Below are positions 44,291-61,907 of a stretch of DNA of 64,000 nucleotides, piece after piece. The position numbers and the translations under genes were made by a program. The stretch's first letter is position 1. Each line of letters begins with the position of its first letter. A model generated the notes under the pieces. That model was not told the DNA's origin and did not search any database. It was given only the letters and a program-made list of their open reading frames with translations. The DNA is from Streptomyces sp. NBC_00250 (GTDB taxonomy: Bacteria > Actinomycetota > Actinomycetes > Streptomycetales > Streptomycetaceae). The DNA lies in assembly GCF_036192275.1 (NCBI RefSeq), contig NZ_CP108088.1, positions 7,922,001 to 7,986,000 of the forward strand, written 5' to 3'.

Positions 44291-44321
44291 TTGTCAGTGC
44301 AATTTCACATTACTATGTTAC
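44291..44321 (+). promoter_or_regulatory. Collagenase promoter with shared operator
   Basis: TTGTCA (44291-44296), a 17-bp spacer and TATGTT (44314-44319) form a good housekeeping-type promoter. The spacer holds the element CAGTGCAATTTCACATTAC. The whole 31 bp differs by one base from the dppA promoter at 54587-54617, in the same orientation to its gene. The surrounding 44050-44419 gap has no other gene seen. Confidence 0.85.
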
Positions 44322-44419: not shown

Positions 44420-46780
44420 TTGTCCATCCACAGACGTGTGCGTTCGTCCCTGCTCACCTCCGCCATCGCGGTGACCCTCCTGGCCTCCTCGGGCCAGACC
44501 GGGGCCTCGGCGGCCGACACGGACGCCCGCGCCACCGCTGTCCCCGCCGCGTCGACCGGCGCTCCGGCCCCCCGGGCCGATCACGGAACCAACCCGTTCG
44601 ACGAGGTGGAGCGCCTCGCCACCGCTCCCCGCAAGACCTTCGGCCCCGCGCCCGCCCCCGGGAGCCTCGCCACCGGGCGCGTCCCCGGCCGGGCCCCGGC
44701 CAAGGCCACCGCCGCGCGGACCTTCTCGGCCGACACCAAGACGACCGCAGCCGGCGTGCCCTGCACCCTCGACGGGATCACCGGGCTCGGCCCCGAGCAG
44801 TTCGCCGACTTCCTCGCCGACCCCGCCGTCCTCGCCGACGACTGTCTGCGCGGTCTCATCTGGACCTGGGACGCCCGGCTCACGCCCGTCATGTCGGACG
44901 CCCACGTCCAGGCCGTCGCCCGCCGAATATCCGGCCTGGCCGCCTCCCACGACGGCCGCAACTCCTCCCATCTGGAGGAGATGTTCACCTACCTGCACGC
45001 CGTCGCGTACCACGACTACTCCCGCGACGAGATCGACACCACCGACGCACCCACCGTGAACGCCGTCCGCCAGGCCGTCGCCGACTTCGGCAACGCGGCC
45101 CGCACCTTCGACGTCACGAAGAGCAATGCCGTCACCCTGCGCGAAGCCCTCTACGCGGCCAGCGCCCCCGGGCTGCGGCAGCACCAACTGGGCCTGATCA
45201 AGCGGGTCCTCGCCACCATGGACCCCTCGCACACCGCCACCCACCTCGACCCGTCCTGGGCAGGGGCCGCGCTCGCCGCGCTCTCCGTCAACTACCTGGG
45301 CGTCTACCCGGGCAACCAGGACGCCGCCTTCCAGGCCGCGGCCGCCGCCGACCCGGCGTACCGCGCCGTCTTCAAGGCCTTCGTCGGCTACGGCCACCTG
45401 AAGGGCACCGCCAACGACTGGGTCGCCCGCGACGCCCTCGGCGAGTACGGCCGCTTCGGTGAGATCCCCAGCCTGCGGACGGAGATCACCGCCGAGCTCG
45501 GCGGCCTGCTCGGCCAGGTCGTGACCACCTTCGGCCGCGGCAGCCAGCAGTGGGCCAAGATCGTCTCCTGGCTCAACTACTTCGACGCGTGCAAGCCGTA
45601 CGGCGTCTGCAAGGCGGACATCGAAGCGCAGATCTTCCCGTACACGTACACCTACGACAACGGGGCCATCAAGGTCCGCACGGGGCTCGACCGGGCCACC
45701 GTCGACCAGCTCTACTACGCGAGCAAGCAGGTCAAGGCGCAGTTCCACCGCGTCCTCGGCAGCGACCAGCCGCTCGCCGGCGACCCCAACACCACCCTCA
45801 CCATCGTCCTGTACGGCTCCCGGGCCGACTACGAGAACTACCACCCCATCCTGACCGGGATGGACACCAACAACGGCGGCATCTACATCGAGCGCGGTGC
45901 CACCTTCTACACCTACCAGCGCCGTGTCCCGCAGGACTCGTCCCTGACGCTCGAAGAGCTCTTCCGCCACGAGTACACCCACTACCTCAACGGCCGCTAC
46001 GCCGTCCCCGGCTTCTTCGGCGAGGGCCCCTGGTACCAGGGCGACCGCACCACCTTCATGGACGAGGGCACCGCCGAGTTCTTCGACGGCGCCACCCGCG
46101 ACGACGGCATCAAGGTCCGCAAGTCCCTGGTCCGCGGCGTCATCAACGACACGGCGGGCGGCGGCCCCCGGATGAACCTCCGGCAGATCCTCAACGCCAC
46201 CTACGACGGCGACGGCTTCCGCTTCTACAACTACGCGGGAACGTTCTTCGAGTTCCTCTGGAACGAGAAGCCCTCGCTGATCCGCGAGATGTACACCCAC
46301 CTGCGGAACAACGACGTGGCCGCGTACGACGCCTGGCGCGTCCGCCTCGGCAACGACGCGGGCCTCCAGAGCGACTACAACCGCTTCCTCGACGCCCAGA
46401 TCGCCAAGGTCGACACGCTCTACGTCCCCAACACCACGTTCACGCCCAACGCCCAGCTGCGCGACGCGGCCCTGGACACGGTGAAGTCCACCTTCGCCAC
46501 CGCCACCTACAACACCCCCGACTGTGTCGAGAAGGGCGAGCCGGGCAAGCGCCGGTTCGTCTGCACCGGCCGGATCACCGCCAACCTGTCCAACTGGGGC
46601 AGCCCGGACCAGAACTTCAAGGACATGTCCGAGACGGTCGACTACTTCATCCTCGACCGCGCGGGCGCCGCCTCGAACAACCTGGCCGACATGAACTGCT
46701 CCTTCGGGCCGATCGACATCTGGTCCACCAGGGTCGCCGGCACGTCGAGTTTCAGCTGTGAGGGCCCCCTCCGCAGCTGA
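44420..46780 (+). CDS. Secreted M9-family collagenase
   Basis: This 786-residue exported zinc protease belongs to family M9 (Clostridium/Vibrio-type collagenases). It has a signal peptide (about residues 1-35), an M9 N-terminal activator domain with HEAT-like helices (about 110-400), and the catalytic domain with His517-Glu-Tyr-Thr-His521. Glu549 follows 28 residues after the second His, in MDEGTAEFF, the spacing of ColG-type enzymes. FGEGPWYQGDRTTFMDEG is a family block. No PKD or collagen-binding domain follows; the last part contains Cys pairs. The start is TTG at 44420. It should cut triple-helical collagen or gelatin to small hydroxyproline-rich peptides. The shared promoter with dppA places it in the hydroxyproline regulon. 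Confidence 0.93.
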   Translation: MSIHRRVRSSLLTSAIAVTLLASSGQTGASAADTDARATAVPAASTGAPAPRADHGTNPFDEVERLATAPRKTFGPAPAPGSLATGRVPGRAPAKATAARTFSADTKTTAAGVPCTLDGITGLGPEQFADFLADPAVLADDCLRGLIWTWDARLTPVMSDAHVQAVARRISGLAASHDGRNSSHLEEMFTYLHAVAYHDYSRDEIDTTDAPTVNAVRQAVADFGNAARTFDVTKSNAVTLREALYAASAPGLRQHQLGLIKRVLATMDPSHTATHLDPSWAGAALAALSVNYLGVYPGNQDAAFQAAAAADPAYRAVFKAFVGYGHLKGTANDWVARDALGEYGRFGEIPSLRTEITAELGGLLGQVVTTFGRGSQQWAKIVSWLNYFDACKPYGVCKADIEAQIFPYTYTYDNGAIKVRTGLDRATVDQLYYASKQVKAQFHRVLGSDQPLAGDPNTTLTIVLYGSRADYENYHPILTGMDTNNGGIYIERGATFYTYQRRVPQDSSLTLEELFRHEYTHYLNGRYAVPGFFGEGPWYQGDRTTFMDEGTAEFFDGATRDDGIKVRKSLVRGVINDTAGGGPRMNLRQILNATYDGDGFRFYNYAGTFFEFLWNEKPSLIREMYTHLRNNDVAAYDAWRVRLGNDAGLQSDYNRFLDAQIAKVDTLYVPNTTFTPNAQLRDAALDTVKSTFATATYNTPDCVEKGEPGKRRFVCTGRITANLSNWGSPDQNFKDMSETVDYFILDRAGAASNNLADMNCSFGPIDIWSTRVAGTSSFSCEGPLRS

Positions 46781-46790
46781 CCCACCCCGT

Positions 46791-46826
46791 CCGGGCCGGT
46801 CCCTCCATGCGGAGGGACCGGCCCGG
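46791..46826 (+). terminator. 16-bp perfect hairpin after the collagenase gene
   Basis: Arms 46791-46806 (CCGGGCCGGTCCCTCC) and 46811-46826 pair fully across four bases. The hairpin starts 10 nt after the collagenase stop and ends 37 nt before the epimerase start, so it should terminate most collagenase transcripts or protect their 3' end, leaving the next two genes on read-through or their own promoter. Confidence 0.82.
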
Positions 46827-46863
46827 CGCACACCCCGAACCACCTTCCCGGAGGCCGTACTTC

Positions 46864-47850
46864 GTGAGCACCACCCCGCACACGGTCCGCACCACCGACT
46901 ACCACACCGCAGGCGAACCCTTCCGGATCGTCGACGAGGACCTGCCCCCGATCCCGGGCGACACCGTCGCCGAGCGCCGCGCCACCGCCCTCACGACCGG
47001 CGGATCGGGCACGGATCCGCGACCGGGCCCCCTCGACGACCTGCGCCGCCTCCTGTCCCGGGAGCCGCGCGGGCACGCGGGCATGTACGGCGGCTTCATC
47101 GTGCCGCCCGACGACGACGGCGCCCACTTCGGCGTGCTGTTCTGGCACAAGGACGGCTACTCCACCGCCTGCGGCCACGGCACGATGGCCCTCGGCGCCT
47201 GGGCCGTCGACACGGGGCGCGTCCCGGCTCCCGCCGACGGCGACGTCTCCGTGCGGATCGACGTGCCCTCCGGACGCGTCACCGCCGCCGTGCACCGCGC
47301 GGACGGCCGCACCACCGGCGTCACCTTCCGCAACGTCCCGACCCGCATCGTCGCCCGAGACGTCAAGGTGACCACCACGCTCGGCACCGTCGACGCCGAC
47401 CTCGCCCACTCCGGCGCCCTCTACGTCTCCGTCGCCGCCCGCGACCTCGGCCTCGACGTCTCCGTGCCCGCCCTGCCCGAACTCGTCCGAGCCGGACGGG
47501 AGATCCGCGCCGCGCTCCCCGCGCACGACGTGTACGGCGTCATCCTGTACGAGGAGCTCCCCGACGCCCCCGAAGGGCTCCACCAGCGCAACGTCACCGT
47601 CTTCGCCGACGGGCAGATCGACCGCTCACCCTGCGGCTCGGGCACCTCCGCCCGCCTCGCCCTGCTCGGCGACGACGGACGCCTCGCCGTCGGGGACACC
47701 CTGCGGCACGAGTCCGTCGTCGGCACCCTCTTCACCGGCCGCCTCCTCACGGCGGGCATCACCGAAGTCAGCGGAACCACCCACCGCACCGGCACCCACG
47801 CCTTCGTCCTCGACCCTGACGACGAGCTGGGAGCGGGGTTCCTCCTGTGA
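46864..47850 (+). CDS. Proline racemase superfamily enzyme (first copy)
   Basis: This 328-residue cytosolic enzyme has both catalytic Cys of racemase/epimerase-type members: Cys103 in STACGHGTMALG and Cys257 in DRSPCGSGTSAR. trans-3-Hydroxyproline dehydratases usually carry Thr at the second position, so sequence favours a racemase or epimerase acting on proline or hydroxyproline. Its coupling (GTGA overlap) to a Delta1-pyrroline-2-carboxylate reductase-like gene fits the trans-3-hydroxyproline route instead, so the assignment is open. GTG at 46864 follows GGAGG by 9 nt. A second family member, at 58793-59797, is the better candidate for 4-hydroxyproline 2-epimerase. Confidence 0.88.
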   Translation: MSTTPHTVRTTDYHTAGEPFRIVDEDLPPIPGDTVAERRATALTTGGSGTDPRPGPLDDLRRLLSREPRGHAGMYGGFIVPPDDDGAHFGVLFWHKDGYSTACGHGTMALGAWAVDTGRVPAPADGDVSVRIDVPSGRVTAAVHRADGRTTGVTFRNVPTRIVARDVKVTTTLGTVDADLAHSGALYVSVAARDLGLDVSVPALPELVRAGREIRAALPAHDVYGVILYEELPDAPEGLHQRNVTVFADGQIDRSPCGSGTSARLALLGDDGRLAVGDTLRHESVVGTLFTGRLLTAGITEVSGTTHRTGTHAFVLDPDDELGAGFLL

Positions 47851-48782
47851 GCCCGCCCCTCTTCCTCGACGCCGCGACCATGGCCCGCCTCATGGGTCCC
47901 GCGGCGGTGACCGACGTCCTCGCCGACGTCCTGCGGGCCGGACTCGACCCCGACGCCGGACCGCCCCGCTCGGCCGTTCCCGTCCCCGCCGGTGAACTCC
48001 TCCTGATGCCCGCGGCCTTCGGCTCCTTCGCGGGCGTCAAGGTCGCCGGAGTCGCCCCCGGCAACCCCGCGCGCGGTCTGCCCCGCATCACCGGCTCCTA
48101 CCTCCTGCTCGACGGCGCCGACCTCCGGCCGCTCGCCCTCCTCGACGGGGCCGCGCTCACCGAGCTCCGCACGCCGGCCGTCTCCGCCCTCGCGGTCCGC
48201 GCGCTGACACCGGCCGACCGGCCCCTGCGCCTCGTCCTCTTCGGGGCGGGGCCCCAGGCGTACGGTCACCTGGAGGCCGTCCTCGCCGTCCGCGAGGTCG
48301 CCGAGACCGTCGTCGTCGCACGCGAGCCGGTCGGCGGACGTGCCCTCGCCGGGTACGCGCGCACCCTCGGCGTCCTCGCCCGCACCGGCACGCCCGACGA
48401 GGTGGCCAAGGCCGATCTCGTCGTCTGCTGCACCACGGCGCGGGAACCGCTCTTCGACGGAACCCTGGTGGCGCCCGGCGCCACCGTCGTCGCCGGCGGT
48501 TCGCACGAGCCGACCGCCCGCGAGACCGACAGCGCGCTCGTCGTCCGCTCCGAGGTCTACGTCGAGGCGCGGACCGCCGCGCTGCGGGAGGCGGGTGACC
48601 TCCTCGTCCCGCTGTCCGAGGGGGTGATCGGGGCCGACCACATCGCGGGCGACCTCGCCGACCTGGTGACCGGTCGCCGGCAACCGTCGGGCGGACGTCC
48701 GCGCTTCTTCAAGAGCGTGGGCATGGCCTGGGAGGACCTCGCCGTCGCCACCGCCCTGTATCGGGCCGCCCGTTCGGCCTGA
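47847..48782 (+). CDS. Ornithine cyclodeaminase/mu-crystallin family reductase
   Basis: This 311-residue protein of the OCD/mu-crystallin family has the Rossmann motif LVLFGAGPQAYGHLEAVLAV, LLDGAALTELRTPAVSALAV (the family's substrate-site Arg), and CCTTAREPLFDG. In hydroxyproline clusters such proteins act as Delta1-pyrroline-2-carboxylate reductases, making L-proline with NAD(P)H. That is the most likely role here because the gene overlaps a proline-racemase-family gene by four bases. The final hairpin at 48792 separates it from the convergent dpp operon. True ornithine cyclodeaminase activity is less likely from context. Confidence 0.85.
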   Translation: MSPPLFLDAATMARLMGPAAVTDVLADVLRAGLDPDAGPPRSAVPVPAGELLLMPAAFGSFAGVKVAGVAPGNPARGLPRITGSYLLLDGADLRPLALLDGAALTELRTPAVSALAVRALTPADRPLRLVLFGAGPQAYGHLEAVLAVREVAETVVVAREPVGGRALAGYARTLGVLARTGTPDEVAKADLVVCCTTAREPLFDGTLVAPGATVVAGGSHEPTARETDSALVVRSEVYVEARTAALREAGDLLVPLSEGVIGADHIAGDLADLVTGRRQPSGGRPRFFKSVGMAWEDLAVATALYRAARSA

Positions 48783-48791
48783 GGACACCGG

Positions 48792-48825
48792 CGCCCCGGT
48801 CCCGCGCGCACGCGGGACCGGGGCG
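48792..48825. terminator. Bidirectional terminator between convergent operons
   Basis: CGCCCCGGTCCCGCG (48792-48806) pairs perfectly over 15 bp with 48811-48825 across CGCA. It occupies nearly all of the 52-nt gap between the reductase gene and dppF, which converge. Confidence 0.85.
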
Positions 48826-48834
48826 TTCGCGTGC

Positions 48835-49818
48835 TCAGACGTCCTCGGGGAAGTGGCAGGCGACCTCACGCGCCTCGCCCGGCACGAGGGTCCGCAGCGG
48901 CGGTGCCTCGGCACGGCAGATCTCCCGCGCCTTGGGGCAGCGCGGGTGGAAGGTGCAGCCCGGCGGGGGAGCGGCGGGACTCGGCGGGTCGCCGAGCAGG
49001 GTGATCCGCTCGCGACTCCGTTCGGCCGCCGGGTCCGGCAGGGGTACGGCGGACAGCAGCGCCCTCGTATAGGGGTGGGCAGGGGCGGCGTACACCCTCT
49101 CCTTGGCGCCGATCTCCACGATCCGGCCCAGGTACATCACGGCCACCCGGTCGCAGACCCGCTTCACGACGGAGAGGTCGTGGGCGATGAAGAGATAGGC
49201 GAGGCCGAGTTCGCGCTGGAGCCGCTCCATCAGATTGACGATCTGCGCCTGTACGGAGACGTCGAGGGCGGAGACCGGTTCGTCGGCCACCACGAGCCGG
49301 GGGTCGGTGGCCAGGGCGCGGGCGATGCCGATGCGCTGTGCCTGTCCGCCGGAGAATTCGTGGGGGTAGCGGTCGATGTGCTCCGGGATGAGGCCGACCA
49401 GTTCCATCAGCTCCACGGCCCGCTTGCGTGCTTCGGTCGCCGTGCCGCCCTGTACGAGGAGCGGGTCGGCGATGATCCGGGCCACGGTCTGCCGGGGGTT
49501 GAGGGAGGAGTGGGGGTCCTGGAAGACCATCTGGAGGTCGCGGCGCAGCGGCTTGAGCGCCCGCTGTGACAGATGGCTGATGTCCCTTCCCTCGTACGAG
49601 ACGGAGCCGGCGGTGGGTTCCAGGAGCCGCACGATCGTGCGGCCCGTGGTCGACTTGCCGCAGCCGGACTCGCCGACGAGGCCCAGGGTCTCGCCCGCCG
49701 CCACGTCGAAGCCGATGCCGTCGACGGCCCGGATCGGGGCCGAGCCCCTGCGGCGGCCCGGGAACGTGATCGTGAGGTCCCGTACGCGGAGGAGGGGCGG
49801 TGAGGGGGTCGTGGTCAT
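48835..49818 (-). CDS. dppF: Peptide ABC importer ATPase DppF
   Basis: This 327-residue ATP-binding subunit of an oligopeptide/dipeptide importer has Walker [13 protein letters not shown], the DppF-type [15 protein letters not shown] signature, Walker [19 protein letters not shown], and the C-terminal oligo/dipeptide-binding domain ([17 protein letters not shown] and the Cys motif [14 protein letters not shown]) that binds a 4Fe-4S cluster in some members. It overlaps dppD by four bases. Last gene of the dppACBDF operon; forms a heterodimer with DppD. Confidence 0.93.
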
Positions 49819-50819
49819 GGGGCGACGCCTTCGTACGCGGGGAAGTGGCAGGCGGCCGGGTGTCCGTCCGGGCCGCCGAGGGAGGGGCGTTCGGTGGCGC
49901 AGCGGGTCCGCTCCTCCTCGGAGCCGACGGCGGCGCGGGGACAGCGGGGTGCGAACGCGCAGCCCGGTGCGGGTTCGAGCAGCGACGGCGGGCTGCCCGG
50001 GATGGCCCGCAGCGGGGCGTCGTCGGGGTCGTCGAGGCGGGGCAGCGAGTCGAGCAGACCACGGGTGTACGGATGGGCGGGGGAGGCGAACAGGGCGTCC
50101 ACGGGCGCGTGTTCGGCGGCCCGGCCGCCGTACATGACGAGCACGTCGTGGGCGACCCGGGCGACCACCCCCAGGTCGTGCGTGATCATGACCACGGAGA
50201 GTCCCCGCTCCTGCTGGAGGCGGGCGATCAGCTCCAGGATCTGGGCCTGGACGGTGACGTCGAGCGCGGTGGTGGGTTCGTCGGCGATGAGGAGGTCGGG
50301 TTCGCAGACGAGGGCCATCGCGATCATCACCCGCTGGCGCATGCCGCCTGAGAACTGGTGGGGGTACTCGCCGGCCCGGCGCCGCGGTTCGGGGATGCCG
50401 ACCTCGGCGAGTGCCTCGACGGCCCGCTCGCGGGCGGCGGCCCGGCGTGAGCCGAAGTGGACCCGGTGGTGCTCCGCGACCTGTTCGCCGACGGTGTAGT
50501 AGGGGTGGAGGCTGGACAGCGGGTCCTGGAAGATCATCGCCATCCGCCGGCCGCGGAGCCCGTTCAGCTCGCGGTCGGAGAGACCGAGCAGTTCCTGCCC
50601 GTCCAGGGTGACGGAGCCGGTGACCTCGGCGCCCGTGTGCAGGCCCATGACGGCGAGGGAGGTGACCGACTTGCCGGAGCCGGACTCGCCCACGATGCCG
50701 AGGGTCCGGCCGGGCAGCACGTCGAAGGCGAGGGAGTCGACGGCCCGGACGGGGCCGCGCTTCGTCGGGAAGGTGACCGTGAGGTCCCGTACCGACAGGA
50801 GGGGGGCGGAGTCGCCCAT
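49815..50819 (-). CDS. dppD: Peptide ABC importer ATPase DppD
   Basis: This 334-residue ATP-binding subunit has Walker [44 protein letters not shown] and the oligopeptide C-terminal Cys pattern ([10 protein letters not shown]). The start ATG at 50819 ([13 protein letters not shown]) shares its A with the TGA of dppB (TGATG). The reading frame is open further upstream across dppB but that part is not protein-like. Its partner is DppF. The importer would bring in peptides released by the collagenase. Confidence 0.93.
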
Positions 50820-51805
50820 CAGTACCTCACTCGCGGGTCGACGACGGCGTACAGGAGGTCGACGGCCAGGTTGGCGACGACGATGAAGGTGGCGGCGAGC
50901 AGCGTCACCCCGAGGATGACCGGCTGGTCCCCGGTCGACAGGGCGCCGTAGAAGAGCCGTCCTATGCCGGGCAGCCCGAAGATGGACTCGGTGATGACGG
51001 CGCCCGCGAGGAGCCCGCCGAGGTCCATCCCGAAGATCGTCAGGATCGGTGTCATCCCGGCGCGCAGACCGTGCTTGACGACCACGGTGCGGCGCGGCAG
51101 CCCCTTGGCGCGGGCGGTGCGGATGTACGGCTCCGCCATGGACTCGATCATCGAGTTCCGGCTCTGCCGCGCGTACATGGCGGCATAGAGGAGGGCGAGC
51201 GCCAGCCAGGGGAGCAGCAGGTTGGAGGCCCAGGAGAGGGGGTCGCTGCCGAAGGGCACGTACTGCGGGTAGGGGAGCAGGCCCGTGACCCGGATCAGCC
51301 CGTAGATGAGCATCACCGAGGTGAAGTAGACGGGGAGCGAGGCGGCGGCGACCGCGCCGACCATCAGGACGCGGTCGGTGAGCGTGTCCTTGCGGAGTGC
51401 GGCGGTGACGCCCGCGGAGAGGCCGAGGAGCAGCCAGATCGCGGCGGCGCCGACGGCCAGGGACGCGGAGACCGGCAGCCGGTCGACGAGGAGGTCCCAC
51501 ACGCCCTCGCTGTTCTCGTAGGAGTAACCGAGGCACGGGAAGTCGCAGCGCAGTGCGTACTGGCCGGTGCCCAGCGTGCGGCCGGTGAAGATGCCGGTGA
51601 CGAAGTCGGCGAACTGCCGCCACAGCGGGGCGTCCAGGCCCATGTTGGCGCGGATGGCCTCCAGGCGTTCGGTGCTGCACGACTTGCCGCAGGCCGCGGC
51701 GGCGGGGTCGGAGGGCAGGACGTAGAAGACGGCGAAGGTGACGGCGGCGATGGCGACGAGCACGCCGAGCACGCCGAGGAGGCGCCGGCCGAGGTAGAGG
51801 ATCAC
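50819..51805 (-). CDS. dppB: Peptide ABC importer permease DppB
   Basis: This 328-residue inner membrane permease has six predicted helices, an N-terminal [20 protein letters not shown] helix, a long extracellular segment with paired Cys (ACGKSC and RCDFPCLG), and the coupling motif [23 protein letters not shown] at 51805 overlaps the dppC stop (ATGA). Cys pairs in the outer loop are common in actinobacterial DppB. Confidence 0.93.
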
Positions 51806-52779: not shown

Positions 52780-52787
52780 GTTCGGCC

Positions 52788-54530: not shown

Positions 54531-54586
54531 ACGGGGTCACTCCGGGGAGCAGTCGGACAGCGCCTGAGGCAGCTGGAATGTGACCG

Positions 54587-54617
54587 GTAACATAGTAATG
54601 TGAAATTGTACTGACAA
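54587..54617 (-). promoter_or_regulatory. dppA promoter with shared operator
   Basis: On the minus strand this reads TTGTCA, 17 bp, TATGTT, with CAGTACAATTTCACATTAC between and around them. It matches the collagenase promoter (44291-44321) at 30 of 31 positions, in the same orientation and at a similar distance (57 nt to the dppA ATG). Confidence 0.85.
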
Positions 54618-54700
54618 GGTGTCGGGTCGGCCGTTACCCATCCGTGTCCGGAAGGCGGTCGGGGGCGACAGGGGGTGGTCGGGGCCTTGGCAAGGCAAGT

Positions 54701-54719
54701 GCAATGTGAAATATTACTG
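54701..54719 (+). promoter_or_regulatory. Third operator copy at the dehydrogenase operon start
   Basis: On the minus strand this 19-mer reads CAGTAATATTTCACATTGC, sharing 15 of 19 positions with the collagenase and dppA operators (consensus CAGTNNNATTTCACATTNC). It ends three bases before the GTG start at 54722. A -10-like TATTAC (54712-54717) lies within it, so transcription may start at the GTG and be leaderless. Confidence 0.75.
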
Positions 54720-54721
54720 CC

Positions 54722-55879
54722 GTGCCCACGAGAGAAACCTCGGACGTCATCGTCATCGGCGCCGGCGTCGTCGGTGCCGCCTGCGCCTACTACGCGGCCC
54801 TCGCCGGCCTCTCCGTCACCGTCGTCGACCGAGGTTACGTCGCGGGCGGCACGACCGGAGCCGGTGAGGGCAACCTCCTGGTCTCCGACAAGGAACCCGG
54901 CCCCGAACTCGAACTCGCCCTCCTCTCCACCGCGCTGTGGACCGAACTCGCCGACAGGCTCCCGCCCGCCGTCGAGTACGAGGCCAAGGGCGGCTTGGTC
55001 GTCGCCTCCGGCGAGACGGGACTGCGCGCCCTGCGGGAGTTCGCGGCCCGCCAGGAGAAAGCGGGTGTCGTCACGCACGAGGTGCCCGGTGACCGGCTCC
55101 ACGACCTGGAGCCCCACCTCGCACCGGGCCTCACCGGCGGCGTCCACTACCCCCAGGACGCCCAGGTGATGCCCGCCCATGCCGCCGCGCAGCTCCTCCG
55201 AGCCGCCGGCGACCGGGTCCGCCTCGCGCCGGGCGAGGAGGTCACCGGCCTCCTCACCGGCGCGGGCGGAGCGGTCCGCGGCGTGCGGACCACCACCCGC
55301 GAACTCCACGCCCCGTACGTCGTGAACGCCGCGGGCACCTGGGGCGGCGCCCTCGCCGCCCTCGCCGGGGTCCACCTGCCCGTCCTGCCCCGCCGAGGCT
55401 TCGTCCTCGTCACCGAACCCCTGCCGCGCGTCGTCCGCCACAAGGTGTACGCCGCCGACTACGTGGCCGACGTGGCCAGCGGCTCCGCCGCCCTCCAGAC
55501 CTCGGCCGTCGTCGAGGGCACCCCTGCCGGACCCGTCCTCATCGGCGCCAGCCGCGAGCGCGTCGGCTTCGACCGGACGCTCTCCACCGAGGTCCTGCGC
55601 CGCCTCGCCGCCGGGGCCACCGCACTGTTCCCCGTACTCGGCACCGTACGGGCGATCCGGACCTACCCCGGCTTCCGCCCCTACCTGCCCGATCATCTGC
55701 CCGCCATCGGGCCCGACCCGCGGGTCCCCGGACTGTTGCACGCCTGCGGCCACGAAGGCGCCGGAATCGGGCTCGCGCCGGTGACGGGACGGATCGTCGC
55801 GGCCTGCATCACCGGCGACGAACCTCCCCTCGACCTCCACCCGTTCCGACCCGAGCGCTTCGACGCCACCGCACACTGA
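54722..55879 (+). CDS. FAD-dependent amine oxidoreductase, D-hydroxyproline dehydrogenase subunit
   Basis: This 385-residue DAO-family flavoprotein has the FAD motif VIVIGAGVVGAACAYYAALAGL, then GGTTGAGEGNLLVSDKEPG, LPVLPRRGFVLVTEP and LPAIGPDPRVPGLLHACGHEGAGIGLAPVTGR. With the following 2Fe-2S and NAD(P)/FAD proteins it matches the three-part hydroxyproline or opine dehydrogenases of hydroxyproline clusters, which oxidise cis-4-hydroxy-D-proline to Delta1-pyrroline-4-hydroxy-2-carboxylate. The start is GTG at 54722 with no Shine-Dalgarno and a promoter directly upstream, so it is probably leaderless. The next gene begins 32 nt later. Confidence 0.88.
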   Translation: MPTRETSDVIVIGAGVVGAACAYYAALAGLSVTVVDRGYVAGGTTGAGEGNLLVSDKEPGPELELALLSTALWTELADRLPPAVEYEAKGGLVVASGETGLRALREFAARQEKAGVVTHEVPGDRLHDLEPHLAPGLTGGVHYPQDAQVMPAHAAAQLLRAAGDRVRLAPGEEVTGLLTGAGGAVRGVRTTTRELHAPYVVNAAGTWGGALAALAGVHLPVLPRRGFVLVTEPLPRVVRHKVYAADYVADVASGSAALQTSAVVEGTPAGPVLIGASRERVGFDRTLSTEVLRRLAAGATALFPVLGTVRAIRTYPGFRPYLPDHLPAIGPDPRVPGLLHACGHEGAGIGLAPVTGRIVAACITGDEPPLDLHPFRPERFDATAH

Positions 55880-55911
55880 GGCGCGCACCCACCGTCACGA
55901 GAGGAGGGCCC

Positions 55912-56226
55912 GTGGCCCGCACCCCCATCGGCCTCGTCGGGGCACAGCCCGATCCGCCGTTCGAGATCACCTTCGACGGCCGGCCCGTCCCCGCCCTGCC
56001 CGGCCAGACCCTCGCCGCCGCCCTGTGGGGCGCGGGCATCCTGGCCTGGCGCACCACCCGGGACGGAGGGCGCCCGCGCGGCGCGTTCTGCGGCATCGGC
56101 CAGTGCTACGACTGCCTCGCCACCGTCAACGGAGAGCCCAACCGCCGCGCCTGTCTGGTCCCGGCCCGCCCCGGCGACGCGATCACCACCCAGGAAGGGC
56201 ACGGCCATGACCGCCTCGGCGTCTGA
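55912..56226 (+). CDS. Small 2Fe-2S subunit of the dehydrogenase
   Basis: This 104-residue protein has the plant-type ferredoxin Cys pattern CGIGQCYDC and a later Cys in RRACLVPARPGD, matching small (2Fe-2S)-binding subunits of proline, hydroxyproline and opine dehydrogenases (HcnA/SoxA-like). AGGAGG lies just before GTG at 55912. It overlaps the next gene by 20 bases. It should carry electrons between the two flavoprotein subunits. Confidence 0.9.
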   Translation: MARTPIGLVGAQPDPPFEITFDGRPVPALPGQTLAAALWGAGILAWRTTRDGGRPRGAFCGIGQCYDCLATVNGEPNRRACLVPARPGDAITTQEGHGHDRLGV

Positions 56227-57808
56227 ACCCGACGACGTGGCCGGGCCTCCCTCGGCGTCCGAACCGAAGGGCTCGGCCGGGACCGTCGCCGACTCCCTGC
56301 CCGACGCGGCTCGACGCTCGGACGTGTCGTACGACCTCGTGGTCGTCGGCGCGGGCTCCGCCGGACTCGCCGGAGCCGTCGCCGCCTCCGAACTCGGCCT
56401 CTCCGTCGCCCTGTTGGACTCATCGACCCAGCCCGGCGGGCAGTTCTACCGGCACCCGGCACCCACCCTGGGCGCGGTACGGCCCGAGGCCCTCCACCAT
56501 GACTGGTCCGCCTTCGCCGACCTGCGCCGACGCCTGGACGCGAGCGGCGTCGACCACCTGACCGGACATCATGTGTGGTCCGTCGCGAAGGAGACCGACG
56601 GAACATGGACGGCGCACGCGCTCACCGGCGCGGACGGAAGCGCGGACGCGCCCGTCCGGATCGGGGCGCGTGCCCTGCTGCTCGCCACCGGCGCCTACGA
56701 GCGCCAACTGCCCTTTCCCGGCTGGACCCTGCCCGGCGTCGTGGGCGCCGGGGGAGCGCAGGCCATGCTCAAGTCCGGGCTCGTACTGCCCGGCCGGCGC
56801 ATCGTCGTGGCCGGCAGCGGCCCGCTGCTGCTCGCCGTCGCCTCGTCGCTCGCCTCGGCCGGCGCACGGGTGCCGGCGGTGGTCGAGGCGGCGGGATACC
56901 TGCGGTACGGGCGCACCCCCCGCGCGCTCGTCACCAACCCGCGCAAGGCGGTCGAGGCCCTCGTCCACGCCGCCGCGCTGGCCCGTCACCGGGTGCCCGT
57001 ACGGCTCCGCAGCGCGGTGACCGAGGTGCACGGCACCGACCGGGTGGAGGCCGTCACGGTGAGCCGACTGGACCGCGACTGGCGGCCCGTACGGGGGACG
57101 GGCCGCCGGATCGCCTGCGACGCCCTCGCGGTCGGACACGGCCTCGTGCCCCAGATCGAGCTTGCCGTGGCGGTCGGCTGCAGCACCCGCGCGCTGCCCG
57201 ACGGCACCCTGGGGCTCGCCCTGGACGCACTCCAGGAGAGCTCGGTCCCCGGCCTGTGGGCCGCGGGCGAGACCGGAGGCGTCGGCGGTGCGGAACTCGC
57301 TCGCGCCGAGGGAGAGTTGGCTGGCCGGGCGATCGCCGCGCGGCTCCTCGGCCGCCGTACCGGAGTCGGCGCGACCGCCGGACTCCGGCGGCGCCGGGAC
57401 CGCATGCGCGCCTTCGCCGACGTCATGTCCGCCGCGCACGCCCCCGGCCCCGGCTGGACCGGGTGGCTGACCGACGACACGGACGTGTGCCGCTGCGAGG
57501 AGGTCCCGGCGGGCCGGGTCCGCGAGGCGGTCGCCGAGCTCGGCGCGCGAGACGCCCGGACCGTCAAACTCCTCACCCGGGCCGGCATGGGGTGGTGCCA
57601 GGGCCGGATGTGCGGCACCGCCGTGTCGTGCCTCGCCGCCGACGGAGCCACCCCTGAACCACCGTCCGAGCGACGTCCGTTCGCCGTTCCCGTCCCGCTG
57701 GCGGTGTTGGCCGCGCTCGACGGACCGCTGGACCCGACCCCCGCGTCCGACGGTCCGCCGGACCCGATCCCCGCGTCCGACGGTCCGACCGACCCAGTCC
57801 CTTCCTGA
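56207..57808 (+). CDS. NAD(P)/FAD-dependent subunit with BFD-like Fe-S domain
   Basis: This 533-residue flavoprotein has FAD motif VVVGAGSAGLAGAVAASELG, PGGQFYRHPAP, NAD(P) motif RRIVVAGSGPLLLAVASSL, and a C-terminal BFD-like 2Fe-2S domain with CRCEEV and GWCQGRMCG. It is the large alpha subunit of HcnB/OoxA-type dehydrogenases. Its first 40 residues (SEPDDVAGPPSASEPKGSAG) are an unusual low-complexity extension, and the last 30 consist of Asp-Gly-Pro-Pro repeats from a DNA tandem duplication. It works with the DAO and small subunits. Confidence 0.88.
   Translation: MTASASEPDDVAGPPSASEPKGSAGTVADSLPDAARRSDVSYDLVVVGAGSAGLAGAVAASELGLSVALLDSSTQPGGQFYRHPAPTLGAVRPEALHHDWSAFADLRRRLDASGVDHLTGHHVWSVAKETDGTWTAHALTGADGSADAPVRIGARALLLATGAYERQLPFPGWTLPGVVGAGGAQAMLKSGLVLPGRRIVVAGSGPLLLAVASSLASAGARVPAVVEAAGYLRYGRTPRALVTNPRKAVEALVHAAALARHRVPVRLRSAVTEVHGTDRVEAVTVSRLDRDWRPVRGTGRRIACDALAVGHGLVPQIELAVAVGCSTRALPDGTLGLALDALQESSVPGLWAAGETGGVGGAELARAEGELAGRAIAARLLGRRTGVGATAGLRRRRDRMRAFADVMSAAHAPGPGWTGWLTDDTDVCRCEEVPAGRVREAVAELGARDARTVKLLTRAGMGWCQGRMCGTAVSCLAADGATPEPPSERRPFAVPVPLAVLAALDGPLDPTPASDGPPDPIPASDGPTDPVPS
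57719..57805 (+). repeat. 30-bp in-frame tandem repeat at the gene end
   Basis: Units start at 57719 (GACGGACCGCTGGACCCGAC), 57749 and 57779; the third is shortened and ends at the stop. Each 30-bp unit encodes ten residues of the type DGPPDPIPAS, lengthening the C-terminal tail of the dehydrogenase subunit. Confidence 0.88.
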
Positions 57809-57838
57809 GACGTCACACACCATCGAAAGGTCGTCGAG

Positions 57839-58747
57839 ATGAACACCACCACCTGGACCACCGACCGCCCCTGGCGCGGCATCATGGTCGCCACCACCCT
57901 GCCGTTCAAGGAAGACCTCTCCGTCGACTACGACGCCTACGCCGAGCACGTGGCCTGGCTGATCGCCAACGGCTGTGACGGCGTCGTCCCGAACGGCTCC
58001 CTCGGCGAGTACCAGACCCTCACCGCCGACGAGCGCGCCCGGGTCGTCCGCACCGCCGTCGAGGCCGCGGGCGACGGCGCGCGGGTCATGCCGGGTGTCG
58101 CCGCCTACGGCAGCGCCGAGTCCCGCCGCTGGGCCGAGCAGGCCGCCGAGGCCGGCTGCGGCTCCGTCCTGCTCCTGCCGCCCAACGCGTACCGCGCCGA
58201 CGAGCGTTCCGTGATCGCCCACTACGCGGAGGTGGCCGGGGTCGGCATCCCGGTCGTCGCGTACAACAACCCCATCGACACCAAGGTCGACCTCGTCCCG
58301 AGCCTGCTGGCGAAGCTGCACGCCGACGGCAGCATCGTCGCCGTCAAGGAGTTCAGCGGCGACGTCCGCAGGGCCTACGAGATCGCCGAACTCGCCCCGG
58401 AACTCGACCTGCTCATCGGCGCCGACGACGTCCTCCTGGAGCTGGCCCTGGCCGGTGCGGTCGGCTGGATCGCCGGCTACCCCAACGCCCTCCCCGCGAG
58501 CTGCGCCGAGCTGTACCGCGCCGCCGTGGCGGGCGACCTGGCCACCGCCCGGCCGCTCTACTCCTCCCTGCACTCCCTGCTGCGCTGGGACTCCAAGGTC
58601 GAGTTCGTCCAGTGCATCAAGCTCTCCATGGACATCGCCGGGAGGCGCGGCGGCCCCACCCGCCCCCCGCGCCTCCCCCTCACCGGTGCGACCGAGACCG
58701 CCGTGCGTACCGCCACGGAGAAGGCCGTGGCCGACGGCCACCGCTGA
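57839..58747 (+). CDS. DHDPS/NAL-family enzyme, likely hydroxyproline-pathway deaminase
   Basis: This 302-residue (beta/alpha)8 aldolase-family protein has the Schiff-base Lys170 in AVKEFSGD and Tyr142 in AYNNP, plus PNGSLGEYQTLTADER. In hydroxyproline clusters this family acts as Delta1-pyrroline-4-hydroxy-2-carboxylate deaminase, giving 2-oxoglutarate semialdehyde. Dihydrodipicolinate synthase function is unlikely here because it sits between the D-hydroxyproline dehydrogenase and epimerase genes. GAAAGG precedes the ATG at 57839. The next gene starts 45 nt later. Confidence 0.9.
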   Translation: MNTTTWTTDRPWRGIMVATTLPFKEDLSVDYDAYAEHVAWLIANGCDGVVPNGSLGEYQTLTADERARVVRTAVEAAGDGARVMPGVAAYGSAESRRWAEQAAEAGCGSVLLLPPNAYRADERSVIAHYAEVAGVGIPVVAYNNPIDTKVDLVPSLLAKLHADGSIVAVKEFSGDVRRAYEIAELAPELDLLIGADDVLLELALAGAVGWIAGYPNALPASCAELYRAAVAGDLATARPLYSSLHSLLRWDSKVEFVQCIKLSMDIAGRRGGPTRPPRLPLTGATETAVRTATEKAVADGHR

Positions 58748-58792
58748 CCGGACCCACCGACCGGACTCACCGACCGGACCGAAAGGAACTCC

Positions 58793-59797
58793 GTGCGTAC
58801 GCGTCATGTCTTCCACGCAGTCGACTCCCACACCGAGGGAATGCCCACCCGGGTCATCACCGGAGGTGTGGGCGTGATCCCCGGGGCCACCATGGCCGAG
58901 CGCAGGCTCCACTTCATCGAGCACCTCGACCACCTCAGGACGCTCCTCATGTTCGAGCCGCGCGGGCACGCGGCGATGAGCGGCGCCATCCTCCAGCCGC
59001 CCACCCGCCCCGACGCCGACTACGGAGTCCTCTACATCGAGGTGTCGGGCCTCCTGCCGATGTGCGGCCACGGCACCATCGGCGTCGCCACCGTCCTCGT
59101 CGAGACCGGGATGGTGCCCGTCGTCGAACCGGTCACCACCGTCCGCCTGGACACCCCCGCGGGTCTCGTCTCCGTCGACGTCCAGGTGGAGGACGGCGCG
59201 GCGACGTCCGCCACCTTCACCAACGTGCCCGCCTTCTGCGTGGGCCTGGACCGCGCGGTGGACGTCCCCGGATTCGGCAAGGTCACCTACGACCTCGCCT
59301 TCGGCGGCAACTTCTACGCCTTCGTCTCCCTCGACGACCTCGGGCTGCCGTTCGACCGCGACCGCAAGGACGACCTCCTCGCCGCCGGACTCGCGATCAT
59401 GGACGCGATCAACGCCTCCCCGGACCGACCCGTGCACCCCAGTCAGCCCGAGATCGCCGGACTCAAACACGTCTACCTCACGGCGCCCGGCTCCGACGCC
59501 GCACACTCGCGGCACGCGATGGCCATCCACCCCGGCTGGTTCGACCGTTCCCCGTGCGGCACCGGGACCAGCGCACGCATGGCGCAACTCCACGCACGGG
59601 GCGAACTCCCCCTCGACCGCGACTTCGTCAACGAGTCCTTCATCGGCACCCGGTTCACCGGCCGGCTCACCGCCGGGACGGAGGTCGGCGGCCTGCCCGC
59701 CGTCGTCCCCACCGTCACCGGCCGCGCCTGGATCACCGGCACCGCCCAGTACTTCCTCGACCCGGACGACCCCTTCCCCGGAGGCTTCCTCCTGTGA
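58793..59797 (+). CDS. 4-hydroxyproline 2-epimerase
   Basis: This 334-residue proline racemase superfamily enzyme has catalytic Cys91 in LLPMCGHGTIGVAT and Cys255 in DRSPCGTGTSARMAQ. The MCGHGT and SPCGTGTSA pair and length match 4-hydroxyproline epimerases, which interconvert trans-4-hydroxy-L-proline and cis-4-hydroxy-D-proline as the first step of the pathway. GTG at 58793 follows GAAAGGA. It overlaps the aldehyde dehydrogenase gene by four bases. Proline racemase activity is the alternative. Confidence 0.92.
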   Translation: MRTRHVFHAVDSHTEGMPTRVITGGVGVIPGATMAERRLHFIEHLDHLRTLLMFEPRGHAAMSGAILQPPTRPDADYGVLYIEVSGLLPMCGHGTIGVATVLVETGMVPVVEPVTTVRLDTPAGLVSVDVQVEDGAATSATFTNVPAFCVGLDRAVDVPGFGKVTYDLAFGGNFYAFVSLDDLGLPFDRDRKDDLLAAGLAIMDAINASPDRPVHPSQPEIAGLKHVYLTAPGSDAAHSRHAMAIHPGWFDRSPCGTGTSARMAQLHARGELPLDRDFVNESFIGTRFTGRLTAGTEVGGLPAVVPTVTGRAWITGTAQYFLDPDDPFPGGFLL

Positions 59798-61179
59798 TCA
59801 CCGACCTGTCCACCCTCGTCTCCCGCAACCCGGCCGACCCGACCGACGTGCTCGTCAGCCTCCCGGCCCCCGGCGCCTTCGCGGCCGCCGACGCCGTCGA
59901 GCGGGCCCGCGCCGCCCAGCCCGGCTGGCTGCGCGCCGGAGCAGCCGCCCGCTCGGCCGCGCTCGGCGCCGTCGCCGCCGGCCTGGAGGCCGCGGCCGAC
60001 GAACTCGCCGCCCTCGCCGTACGCGAGGTCGGCAAGCCCCTCACCGAGGCCAGGGCCGAGATCGCGCGCACCGTCGCGATCTGGCGCTACTACGCCCAGG
60101 CGCCCTTCGAGCCCACCGGCACCGTCCACGAGACCGCGGCAGGACCCGGACTGCTCCTCAACCGGCGCCGCCCCCACGGCGTGGCCGGGCTCGTCACTCC
60201 CTGGAACTTCCCGTTCGCCATCCCCAGCTGGAAAGCCGCCCCGGCACTCGCGGTGGGCAACACGGTCGTCCTCAAACCTGCCCCCGAAGCCACCGCGTGC
60301 GCCCAGCGACTCGCCGAGATCGTCCGACAGGCCCTGCCCGAGCACGTGTTCGCCGTCCTGCCGGGCGGCCCCACCGAGGGCAACGCCCTCGTCTCCGCCG
60401 CCGACGTCGTCTCCTTCACCGGCTCCACCCCCGTGGGCCGGGCCGTCGTCCGCGCGGCGACCGCGCGGGGCGTACCCGCGCAGGCCGAGATGGGCGGCCT
60501 GAACGCGGCGATCGTCCTGCCCGACGCGGACATCGGGCGGGCCGCGGCCCACATCGCGGCCGCCGTCGCCGGGTTCGCGGGCCAGAAGTGCACCGCCACC
60601 AGCCGGATCGTCGCGGTCGGAGCCGCCCTCGACCCCCTGCGCGAAGCCCTCTCCGAGGCGTTCCGGGCCGTCCGGGTCGGAGACCCCGCCGATCCGGAGA
60701 CGGTGTGCGGGCCGCTCGTCCAGGAGAGCGCGCGCGAGCGGGTCGTCGAGGCCTGGCAGGGGCTCCCCGTCCTCGCCGGCGCCACCGCACCGACGACACC
60801 CGGCTGGTACGCGGCCCCGACCCTGGTCGAGAAGGTCCCGCCGGGGCACCGACTGCTCAACGAGGAGGTCTTCGGACCCATCGCCGCCCTGCTCCCCGCC
60901 GACGACCTCGCCCACGCGGTACGGATCACCAACTCGGTGCCGTACGGCCTCGTCACCTCGGTCCACACGGCCGACCTCGACACCGCCCTGTACGGACTCG
61001 ACCTCCTCGACACCGGCATGATCCGGATCAACGCCCCGTCCACCGGCGTCGACTTCCACCTGCCGTTCGGCGGGGCCAAGCAGTCCGGTCACGGCCCGCG
61101 CGAGCAGGGCAGGGCGGCTCTCGAGTTCTACACGTCCTCCCGGACGTACACCCTGGCACCCGCGGGCGCAGCGACGTGA
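59794..61179 (+). CDS. Aldehyde dehydrogenase, likely 2-oxoglutarate semialdehyde dehydrogenase
   Basis: This 461-residue NAD(P)-dependent aldehyde dehydrogenase has Asn138 in TPWNFPFAIPSWK, Lys161 in VVLKPAP, SFTGSTPVG, Glu232 in EMGGLNAAIV and nucleophile Cys266 in GQKCTATSR. In context it should oxidise 2-oxoglutarate semialdehyde to 2-oxoglutarate, the last step of hydroxyproline breakdown. The GTG start overlaps the epimerase stop (GTGA). A frame open to 58612 is antisense-like noise over the epimerase gene. The GntR gene begins 47 nt later. Confidence 0.92.
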   Translation: MITDLSTLVSRNPADPTDVLVSLPAPGAFAAADAVERARAAQPGWLRAGAAARSAALGAVAAGLEAAADELAALAVREVGKPLTEARAEIARTVAIWRYYAQAPFEPTGTVHETAAGPGLLLNRRRPHGVAGLVTPWNFPFAIPSWKAAPALAVGNTVVLKPAPEATACAQRLAEIVRQALPEHVFAVLPGGPTEGNALVSAADVVSFTGSTPVGRAVVRAATARGVPAQAEMGGLNAAIVLPDADIGRAAAHIAAAVAGFAGQKCTATSRIVAVGAALDPLREALSEAFRAVRVGDPADPETVCGPLVQESARERVVEAWQGLPVLAGATAPTTPGWYAAPTLVEKVPPGHRLLNEEVFGPIAALLPADDLAHAVRITNSVPYGLVTSVHTADLDTALYGLDLLDTGMIRINAPSTGVDFHLPFGGAKQSGHGPREQGRAALEFYTSSRTYTLAPAGAAT

Positions 61180-61226
61180 CATCGTACGGTGGTGACCGAG
61201 AACGAACCGAAGGGATCACCACCGCC

Positions 61227-61907
61227 ATGGGGCACCTGACCCACCGCGACCTGAACGCTTCCCGCGAGCGGCTGCGCGACCAGGTCGCCCATGCCCTGCG
61301 CGCCGCCCTGATCTCCGGCGAGCTGCGGCCCGGCGTGGTGTACTCGGCCCCCACTCTGGCCGAGGACTTCGGGATCTCCGCCACCCCCGTACGCGAGGCG
61401 ATGCTCGACCTGGCTCGCGAAGGGCTGGTCGAGCCCGTCCGCAACAAGGGGTTCCGGGTCACCGAGGTCGACGAACGCGACCTCGACCAGTACACCGAGA
61501 TCCGCGCGCTCATCGAGATCCCGACGGTCGGCCGCGTCACCCGGTCCGCCACTCGCGAGGACCTGGAGGCGCTGCGGCCGGTGGCCGTGGAGATCGTGCG
61601 CGCCGCCCGCGAGCACGACCTCATCGGCTACCTGGAGGCCGACCGGCTCTTCCACCTCACCCTGCTCGGCCTCGCGGGCAACGAACGCCTCGTCGAGACC
61701 GTCGGCGATCTGCGCAAGCGGTCGCGCCTGTACGGGCTCACCGCCCTGGACGAGAGCGGCGACCTCATTCCGTCGGCCGAGGAGCACCTGGAGCTCCTCG
61801 ACCTGATGCTCGCCGGGGACGCCGAGGGCGCGGAGGCGTGCATGACCCGACACCTGGGGCACGTCCGTTCCCTCTGGGCCAAGAGCGAGGGACCGGCCGA
61901 AGGCTAG
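61227..61907 (+). CDS. GntR-family regulator (FCD domain)
   Basis: This 226-residue FadR-subfamily regulator has an N-terminal winged helix (HALRAALISGELRPGVVYSA, LAEDFGISATPVREAMLDLAREGLV) and an FCD effector domain with the metal-binding His pattern (DRLFHLTLLGLAGN, EHLELLDLMLAGD, CMTRHLGH). It is the last gene of the dehydrogenase operon and is the obvious candidate to bind the CAGTNNNATTTCACATTNC sites upstream of the collagenase, dppA and dehydrogenase genes. The effector is probably hydroxyproline or a pathway intermediate, which is inferred. Confidence 0.9.
   Translation: MGHLTHRDLNASRERLRDQVAHALRAALISGELRPGVVYSAPTLAEDFGISATPVREAMLDLAREGLVEPVRNKGFRVTEVDERDLDQYTEIRALIEIPTVGRVTRSATREDLEALRPVAVEIVRAAREHDLIGYLEADRLFHLTLLGLAGNERLVETVGDLRKRSRLYGLTALDESGDLIPSAEEHLELLDLMLAGDAEGAEACMTRHLGHVRSLWAKSEGPAEG

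Follow-up and report, generated by a model that had tools for sequence, protein, structure and literature searches.

A probable HypR-controlled collagen-scavenging island in Streptomyces sp. NBC_00250 and its relatives

We describe a 17.5-kb gene island of Streptomyces sp. NBC_00250 that very probably serves to scavenge collagen, with a secreted collagenase, an Opp-type peptide importer, and hydroxyproline (Hyp) catabolism co-regulated by a repressor of the HypR type. The island occupies positions 44420 to 61907 of the 64,000-nucleotide stretch analyzed here (the window), which is part of contig NZ_CP108088.1 (7.92 to 7.99 Mb of 9.16 Mb; the whole genome is 9.27 Mb). A preliminary description of this DNA had named a collagenase, an importer, a Hyp epimerase, a three-part dehydrogenase, a deaminase, an aldehyde dehydrogenase, and a GntR regulator; all are present within exactly that span, and their identities are right at the family level, every gene of the island being supported by a Pfam match (Table 1). 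It had overlooked a second member of the proline racemase superfamily (the second homologue) and an OCD/mu-crystallin protein encoded next to it. Its interpretation as co-regulated collagen and Hyp scavenging under conserved, shared operators stands, but its claims of novelty and completeness do not. As a compact locus that is frequent in Streptomyces, the island makes collagen breakdown, peptide uptake, and the burning of Hyp testable together, and its operators and repressor are of a kind already published.

Island layout and operators

The island genes form three transcription units: a plus-strand unit of the collagenase, second homologue, and OCD genes; a convergent minus-strand unit that encodes the importer and its substrate-binding protein (SBP); and, divergent from the importer, a plus-strand Hyp operon (54722 to 61907) in the order DAO, Fer2_4, Pyr_redox/BFD, DHDPS, 4-Hyp epimerase, aldehyde dehydrogenase, and GntR-FCD. 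At the family level, this operon holds together the set for trans-4-Hyp degradation, i.e., 4-Hyp 2-epimerase, D-Hyp dehydrogenase, Δ1-pyrroline-4-hydroxy-2-carboxylate (Pyr4H2C) deaminase, and alpha-ketoglutaric semialdehyde (KGSA) dehydrogenase. The single M9 collagenase gene of the genome and both of its proline racemase genes fall inside the island.

With up to two mismatches, a 19-bp operator pattern occurs at three sites in the 9.27-Mb genome, one before each island transcription unit. Allowing three mismatches returned these sites (0, 0, and 1 mismatch) and one three-mismatch site elsewhere, and the reversed control pattern gave none; a single extra site per 9.27 Mb and an empty control rule out chance as the origin of the shared operator. 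The 31-bp promoters of the collagenase and the importer are identical at 30 of 31 bases, and the collagenase operator (44295 to 44313) lies mostly inside the 17-bp spacer of a putative promoter whose hexamers were picked by eye. Where the preliminary description spoke of one operator, there are thus three copies on three units, although they are indeed shared and conserved in relatives.

A slightly wider pattern (at most one mismatch) yielded exactly three sites in each of 10 genomes with the layout of the window and two sites in both of the genomes examined with a compact layout (see below). In all 12, the sites lie on a single contig and within about 12.4 kb, and the reversed control gave none. 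Conservation was also followed across 72 named loci retrieved by a collagenase search (71 labeled Streptomyces and 1 Microtetraspora), among which the col promoter is near-invariant over about 31 bases. In the loci with upstream DNA, the promoter motif stands before col in 68 of 70 and before sbp in all 30; before dao, a short core, ATGTGA(A/C)A, is present in all 69. This core stands at one distance from the start of the dao match in 52 of the 69 and 6 bp further away in 11. Because the operator/-10 region of the Hyp operon ends 2 bp before its GTG codon, at a distance fixed in those 52 relatives, the mRNA of the operon is probably leaderless. A scan for promoters before gntR found none in 48 loci, the site there being on the opposite strand. 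Sites so confined and so conserved are the pattern expected from a repressor with an island-limited regulon.

The likely identity of that repressor comes from Streptomyces coelicolor, in which HypR footprints on TACAATGTCAC and the sites positive in electrophoretic mobility shift assays (EMSA) include TGCAATGTCAC and TGCAATGTGAC (PMC6608401). Each of the island sites shares 10 of 11 bases with a sequence to which HypR was seen to bind by EMSA or footprinting: TGCAATTTCAC and TACAATTTCAC correspond to TGCAATGTCAC and TACAATGTCAC, and TGCAATGTGAA corresponds to TGCAATGTGAC. The predicted island sites are TGC(A/C)ATGTCAC-like; the exact published HypR motif was found elsewhere in the genome and not in the island. 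The exact pattern NTRCMATGTSACNN occurs three times in the genome, once before a second hypR gene (see below) and twice by other open reading frames (ORFs; L093 and L094). In S. coelicolor, HypR also targets SCO5281, a 2-oxoglutarate dehydrogenase gene (PMC6608401). Such a reach of the regulon in NBC_00250 is weakly rejected, on exact NTRCMATGTSACNN matches only and with the gene itself not looked up.

Distribution among Streptomyces genomes

A synteny survey, which the preliminary description had proposed, shows that the joining of collagenase and Hyp genes is frequent but not universal. A DAO gene lies downstream of the collagenase gene in 60 of the 62 named loci that have at least 9 kb of downstream sequence. 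These 62 comprise 47 loci of compact layout, 10 that have the layout of the window, opp included, 2 that resemble these but lack opp, and 3 others (1 with DAO). The compact order is col-dao-fer2-pyr-dhdps-hypE-(t3h-ocd)-gntR, with an sbp match following in 17 loci; four compact loci are without both racemase homologue and OCD, and three have OCD but no homologue match. Since the flanks of named loci were 10 kb, the epimerase of the window layout was out of reach and was counted instead by a genome-wide search of 11 genomes, reported below.

In an evenly drawn sample of 121 Streptomyces genomes, 73 have an M9 gene. By score, the M9 places fall into a canonical class (54 places, 330 bits or more) and an island type (38 places, 140 to 180 bits), and a 4-Hyp-epimerase-type gene lies within 25 kb of 22 of the 38 island-type collagenases versus 8 of the 54 canonical ones. 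Anywhere in the genome, an epimerase-type gene is present in 71 of the 73 M9-bearing genomes versus 29 of the 48 without M9; for the second homologue, the counts are 25/73 versus 0/48. Fisher tests gave 0.0048 for proximity and 4.8e-7 for co-occurrence, values that are indicative only, the genomes being related and some in short contigs. For co-occurrence, places were classed as scoring at least 400 bits (102 places) or 229 to 292 bits (25 places); four places of 313 to 360 bits belong to neither class, two of them in G007 and, in genomes without M9, one in G108 and one in G045. The proximity count leaves out three sub-cut-off M9 rows, most proline racemase rows of M9-less genomes, and fragments.

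At three loci (L080, L081, and L084), an importer 65 to 81% identical to that of the island and a racemase-homologue/OCD pair stand beside a canonical M9 gene, whose product is 25 to 27% identical to the island collagenase. Since importer and pair here accompany a different M9 class, more than one origin or exchange underlies the association.

The second homologue and its OCD partner

The second homologue, which is also encoded in Streptomyces venezuelae ATCC 10712, has a Cys122/Cys276 catalytic pair that is invariant in 25 of 25 aligned sequences, and every sequence examined is of the Cys-Cys kind. The Cys pair is kept but the motifs around it are altered, ACGH and DRSPCGSG standing where racemases and epimerases have MCGH and DRSPCGTG, and its pocket words (MYG, GYST-CGH, and FADG) match those of the Thermococcus litoralis trans-3-hydroxy-L-proline dehydratase (T3LHypD). 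The best NCBIfam model is TransHydProDhtase (NF045511; 244.8 bits, under its cut-off of 540), and NF047722 gave 106.7 bits (cut-off 550). Among solved structures, the closest relatives are two Cys-Thr dehydratases (211.7 and 189.4 bits); racemases reach at most 164.5 bits, epimerases at most 117.5 bits, and the Ser-type dehydratase 4k7g 67.0 bits. Foldseek placed T. litoralis T3LHypD (6r76) first by E-value. VIA-align gave the top rank to Trypanosoma cruzi proline racemase, and its best rows for a dehydratase and an epimerase came within about 1.5 Z of that; given these differing rankings, the fold comparison does not settle function. An ordinary T3LHypD, whether Cys-Thr (type I) or Ser-Thr (type II), is rejected by the Cys-Cys pair and the sub-cut-off scores.

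The OCD protein scores best with PRK06141 (203.9 bits, below the cut-off of 322), and its best solved relative is 6t3e, a Δ1-pyrroline-2-carboxylate (Pyr2C) reductase. Its gene adjoins that of the second homologue in the window, in all 52 homologue-bearing loci among the 62 scorable named loci, and in 8 of 10 further stretches. Judged from sequence relationships, the pair most likely handles the minor collagen residue trans-3-Hyp, which would be dehydrated and then reduced to proline. A serious possibility, though on balance somewhat improbable, is that the second homologue is a racemase or epimerase (of proline, 3-Hyp, or 4-Hyp) and that OCD recycles the Pyr2C formed when D-Hyp dehydrogenase oxidizes D-proline. 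The low score against 4k7g is in keeping with this, but proximity to the Cys-Thr dehydratases, the shared pocket words, and the relationship of OCD to a Pyr2C reductase all speak for trans-3-Hyp, as do L083 and L084, where the pair stands beside a collagenase gene and the retrieved sequence contains no 4-Hyp genes. The second homologue offers a clean test of how the two catalytic residues of the superfamily set epimerase versus dehydratase chemistry.

Two hypR loci

HypR pairs a GntR winged helix-turn-helix with a six-helix FCD domain, and the island protein matches both families. All 14 residues named for HypR (DNA contact, zinc ligand, and pocket) are present in the island GntR/FCD protein at a constant offset of +1. 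A search with the published motif revealed a second HypR-type GntR gene at 2413353 to 2414015 (2.41 Mb) of its contig, the product of which is 79% identical to the island copy and likewise has 14 of 14 named residues at the +1 offset. About 35 bp upstream of this gene lies TACAATGTCAC, the published HypR autoregulatory and footprint site. Copies of hypR were sought in 12 entries representing 11 distinct genomes (the G004 and G129 loci are identical). Both copies are present in 11 of the 12 (10 genomes), and only the second type was found in the L015 genome; the island copy is kept at 92 to 100% identity in those 11 (10 of 11 distinct genomes). The published site precedes all 12 second-type loci (11 distinct) and, searched for with three patterns, is absent from the roughly 1.5-kb flanks of all 11 island-type loci (10 distinct).

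The same 11 genomes each have exactly one proline racemase family place of at least 420 bits. This full-length epimerase place lies in the island in six genomes and beside the second hypR in five (L107, L111, L114, L116, and L117), where that gene adjoins the epimerase and a DHDPS gene in the order of SCO6292 to SCO6294. In the other six, the source genome included, the second hypR stands alone. Short epimerase-type fragments remain near the island in two of the five genomes (G126 and G128), and the aminotransferase-side flank of the second hypR can be aligned between the source genome and four of the five. We infer from these comparisons that an older operon was linked to hypR, that the island holds a copy of it, and that the two lost parts reciprocally. 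With one epimerase function split across two loci in near relatives, duplication followed by reciprocal loss becomes tractable to study.

A wider proposal, which we regard as doubtful though conceivable, is that these are collagen-dedicated islands using both hydroxyprolines, that the second homologue represents a new Cys-Cys class of trans-3-Hyp dehydratase (or another 3-Hyp-acting enzyme) travelling with collagenases, and that in one lineage the island duplicated the older hypR-linked operon, reciprocal loss leaving two HypR genes and one epimerase gene.

That the island is repressed chiefly by the second HypR, and not by its own GntR protein, is unlikely. The gene of this second HypR carries the autoregulatory site, the protein resembles the gntR product of most compact islands more closely than the island copy does, and the L015 genome has the island layout with only the second-type HypR; but the island copy is strongly conserved and encoded inside the island, and none of the island sites matches the published motif exactly. 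The island HypR is our candidate, still putative, for the protein that binds the three sites.

Proposed function and evidence against it

Without inducer, the HypR-type GntR/FCD protein would occupy the three promoter-overlapping sites of the collagenase unit, the importer, and the Hyp operon, to which the repressor gene itself belongs. A Hyp-derived signal would lift repression. In S. coelicolor, L-Hyp induces the hypR and SCO6289 promoters, and a hypR deletion relieves the repression of SCO6289, the collagenase gene SCO5912, and SCO5281; neither L-Hyp nor D-Hyp changed HypR DNA binding in vitro (PMC6608401). The secreted collagenase would then cut collagen, the importer would presumably bring in the peptides, and peptidases encoded off-island would release amino acids from them. 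Trans-4-Hyp would pass through the epimerase, the three-part D-Hyp dehydrogenase, the deaminase, and the semialdehyde dehydrogenase to 2-oxoglutarate, and the second homologue and OCD would turn trans-3-Hyp into proline as outlined above. In S. coelicolor, growth on L-Hyp is lost when SCO6293, which encodes the epimerase, is deleted (PMC6608401). Streptomyces lividans grows on trans-4-Hyp (PMC4113996).

The solved proteins nearest to the collagenase are ColH and ColG (210 bits over residues 404 to 671, the catalytic part); the best entry of the other solved M9 group, which we take to be the Vibrio/Grimontia type, gives 97.5 bits. The protein carries the M9 domain, an HEYTH zinc motif within the HEXXH...E pattern of M9, and a signal-peptide-like N terminus, motif and N terminus having been recognized by eye. 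A clostridial-type collagenase without accessory domains may also interest enzyme users.

Several observations weigh against the scavenging island as described. The 72 named loci are not independent, being close relatives that a collagenase search retrieved, and in the 121-genome sample, no proline racemase family gene lies within 25 kb of 16 of the 38 island-type and 44 of the 54 canonical collagenases, some of them on short contigs. With the epimerase off-island in 5 of 11 genomes, one of them without the island-type repressor, the island is not kept whole even in its own lineage, and the existence of a HypR paralogue makes the identity of the acting repressor uncertain. None of the 10 island proteins scanned reached an NCBIfam cut-off, and the top names for the D-Hyp dehydrogenase subunits are generic (ThiO and soxA). 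The specific enzyme names accordingly lean on families, gene order, and precedent; that of the DAO-type subunit follows from the match of the three-part set and its order to SCO6289 to SCO6291. There is no prolidase gene in the island, and the eight Peptidase_M24 genes of the genome, a family that takes in prolidases and also other aminopeptidases, all lie elsewhere. Because prolidase-type peptidases are encoded outside the island, and the only full-length epimerase gene is off-island in five same-layout genomes, the words "complete" and "self-contained" of the preliminary description are too strong. Finally, Pfam covers only the catalytic domain and part of the N-terminal domain (41.5 bits) of the collagenase, and no C-terminal PKD/PPC domain was matched; activity on native collagen is consequently not assured.

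The missing C-terminal domains would also suit a different use of the island, for Hyp-rich proteins of plants and algae or for free Hyp and proline peptides, with M9 as a general gelatinase or peptidase and collagen incidental. Hyp does occur in plant and algal walls (PMC6608401), and epimerase-type genes are found in 29 of the 48 M9-less genomes. We nevertheless consider this quite unlikely: the catalytic part is close to ColH/ColG, epimerase-type genes are near-constant in M9-bearing genomes (71/73) and the second homologue was seen only in these among the 121 genomes sampled, and the canonical M9 class, too, adjoins the importer and the racemase-homologue/OCD pair (L080, L081, and L084).

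Feature list and neighboring features

Table 1. Predicted features of the collagen/Hyp island, in window positions
Feature	Position	Strand	Evidence and remarks
Collagenase promoter-operator	44291..44321	+	-35 TTGTCA 44291-44296, 17-bp spacer, -10 TATGTT 44314-44319 (putative)
Secreted M9 collagenase, clostridial ColH/ColG type	44420..46780	+	PF01752 166.6 bits; PF08453 41.5 bits; TTG start
Second proline-racemase-superfamily protein	46807..47850	+	PF05544 234 bits; probable start GTG 46864, by homologue P0001
OCD/mu-crystallin protein, probable Δ1-pyrroline-2-carboxylate reductase	47847..48782	+	PF02423
OppF-type ATPase	48835..49818	-	ABC_tran, oligo_HPY
OppD-type ATPase	49815..50819	-	ABC_tran, oligo_HPY within ORF 49815-51680; start set by eye
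OppB-type permease	50819..51805	-	BPD_transp_1_N, BPD_transp_1
OppC-type permease	51802..52779	-	BPD_transp_1, OppC_N; start set by eye
Peptide-binding lipoprotein (SBP)	52788..54530	-	SBP_bac_5 246.5 bits; lipobox-like LAATGC by eye
Importer promoter-operator	54587..54617	-	Operator 54595-54613
Hyp-operon operator/-10 region	54701..54719	+	Ends 2 bp before GTG 54722
D-Hyp dehydrogenase, DAO-type subunit	54722..55879	+	DAO 232 bits; GTG start
D-Hyp dehydrogenase, 2Fe-2S subunit	55912..56226	+	Fer2_4 91.7 bits
D-Hyp dehydrogenase, Pyr_redox/BFD subunit	56207..57808	+	Pyr_redox_2, Fer2_BFD
DHDPS-type Pyr4H2C deaminase	57839..58747	+	PF00701 160.6 bits
4-Hyp 2-epimerase (Cys-Cys)	58793..59797	+	PF05544 425 bits; PRK13971 350.4 bits (cut-off 376)
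Aldehyde dehydrogenase, probable KGSA dehydrogenase	59794..61179	+	Aldedh; AlphKGSA_gudD 353.1 bits (cut-off 770)
GntR/FCD repressor, HypR type	61227..61907	+	GntR PF00392 and FCD PF07729, both over cut-off

A 30-bp tandem repeat of 2.8 copies (57711 to 57795) at the 3' end of the Pyr_redox/BFD gene encodes a Pro/Asp-rich tail. Upstream of the collagenase gene lie a sulfatase gene with an SGSH_C-like C terminus (41807 to 43207) and, beyond it, a large ORF (36937 to 40821) with weak Golvesin_C/GDSL matches. Farther off, a 2-kb stretch (28001 to 30000) has a lower GC content (0.62 versus about 0.72), and the ORFs tested there gave no Pfam match; a CHAT-domain protein is encoded nearby (31123 to 34620). 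The window has no tRNA or Rfam match at gathering thresholds.

Comparison with known systems

The preliminary description knew of no account of such a system, but two precedents exist. The closer one is the HypR regulon of S. coelicolor (SCO6289 to SCO6294, SCO5912, and SCO5281; PMC6608401, 2019), in which HypR represses a collagenase gene and the Hyp operon. It shares with the island the repressor type, a near-identical operator, an M9 collagenase in the regulon, and the three-part dehydrogenase, deaminase, and epimerase in the same order. The S. coelicolor genes are scattered, whereas those of the island all lie within 17.5 kb. The published regulon table has neither an Opp importer nor a racemase-homologue/OCD pair, both of which the island has; the candidate semialdehyde dehydrogenase SCO1871 lies elsewhere, while that of the island is inside the operon; and SCO5912 is listed with PKD/PPC domains (PMC6608401).

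The second precedent is the collagen utilization cluster of about 21 kb from Colwellia BB5 (PMC7883544, 2021), which joins collagenase, transport, and Hyp and proline catabolism. Like the island, it includes an M9 collagenase, a transporter, 4-Hyp epimerase, D-Hyp dehydrogenase, a deaminase, KGSA dehydrogenase, and a pyrroline reductase/OCD. Colwellia BB5 is a gammaproteobacterium, and its cluster differs in relying on major facilitator superfamily (MFS) and TonB-dependent transport, in its prolyl peptidases and isomerases, and in a PutR-type regulator; the sections of that report available to us describe no shared operator.

The catabolic genes also resemble neighborhoods in which 4-Hyp epimerase and trans-3-Hyp dehydratase genes are adjacent and accompanied by D-amino acid oxidase (DAAO), DHDPS, aldehyde dehydrogenase (ALDH), and OCD partners (PMC4113996), a study whose available text does not mention collagen. 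The dehydratases for which that text states a catalytic pair are Cys-Thr or Ser-Thr, unlike the Cys-Cys homologue of the island; pairs are not stated for clusters 5 and 12, assayed as trans-3-Hyp dehydratases, which could include a Cys-Cys enzyme. Solved Cys-Thr dehydratases have Thr (Thr273 in the human enzyme; PMC9309405) where the family of the second homologue has its second catalytic Cys.

Within the open-licence literature, we found no Streptomyces paper that treats a collagenase, an importer, and Hyp genes together as a single locus. As far as that literature was searched, the following appear to be new: the gathering of the system, importer and semialdehyde dehydrogenase included, at a single Streptomyces locus; the confined three-site regulon; the collagenase-tied pair of Cys-Cys homologue and OCD; and the two-locus hypR arrangement.

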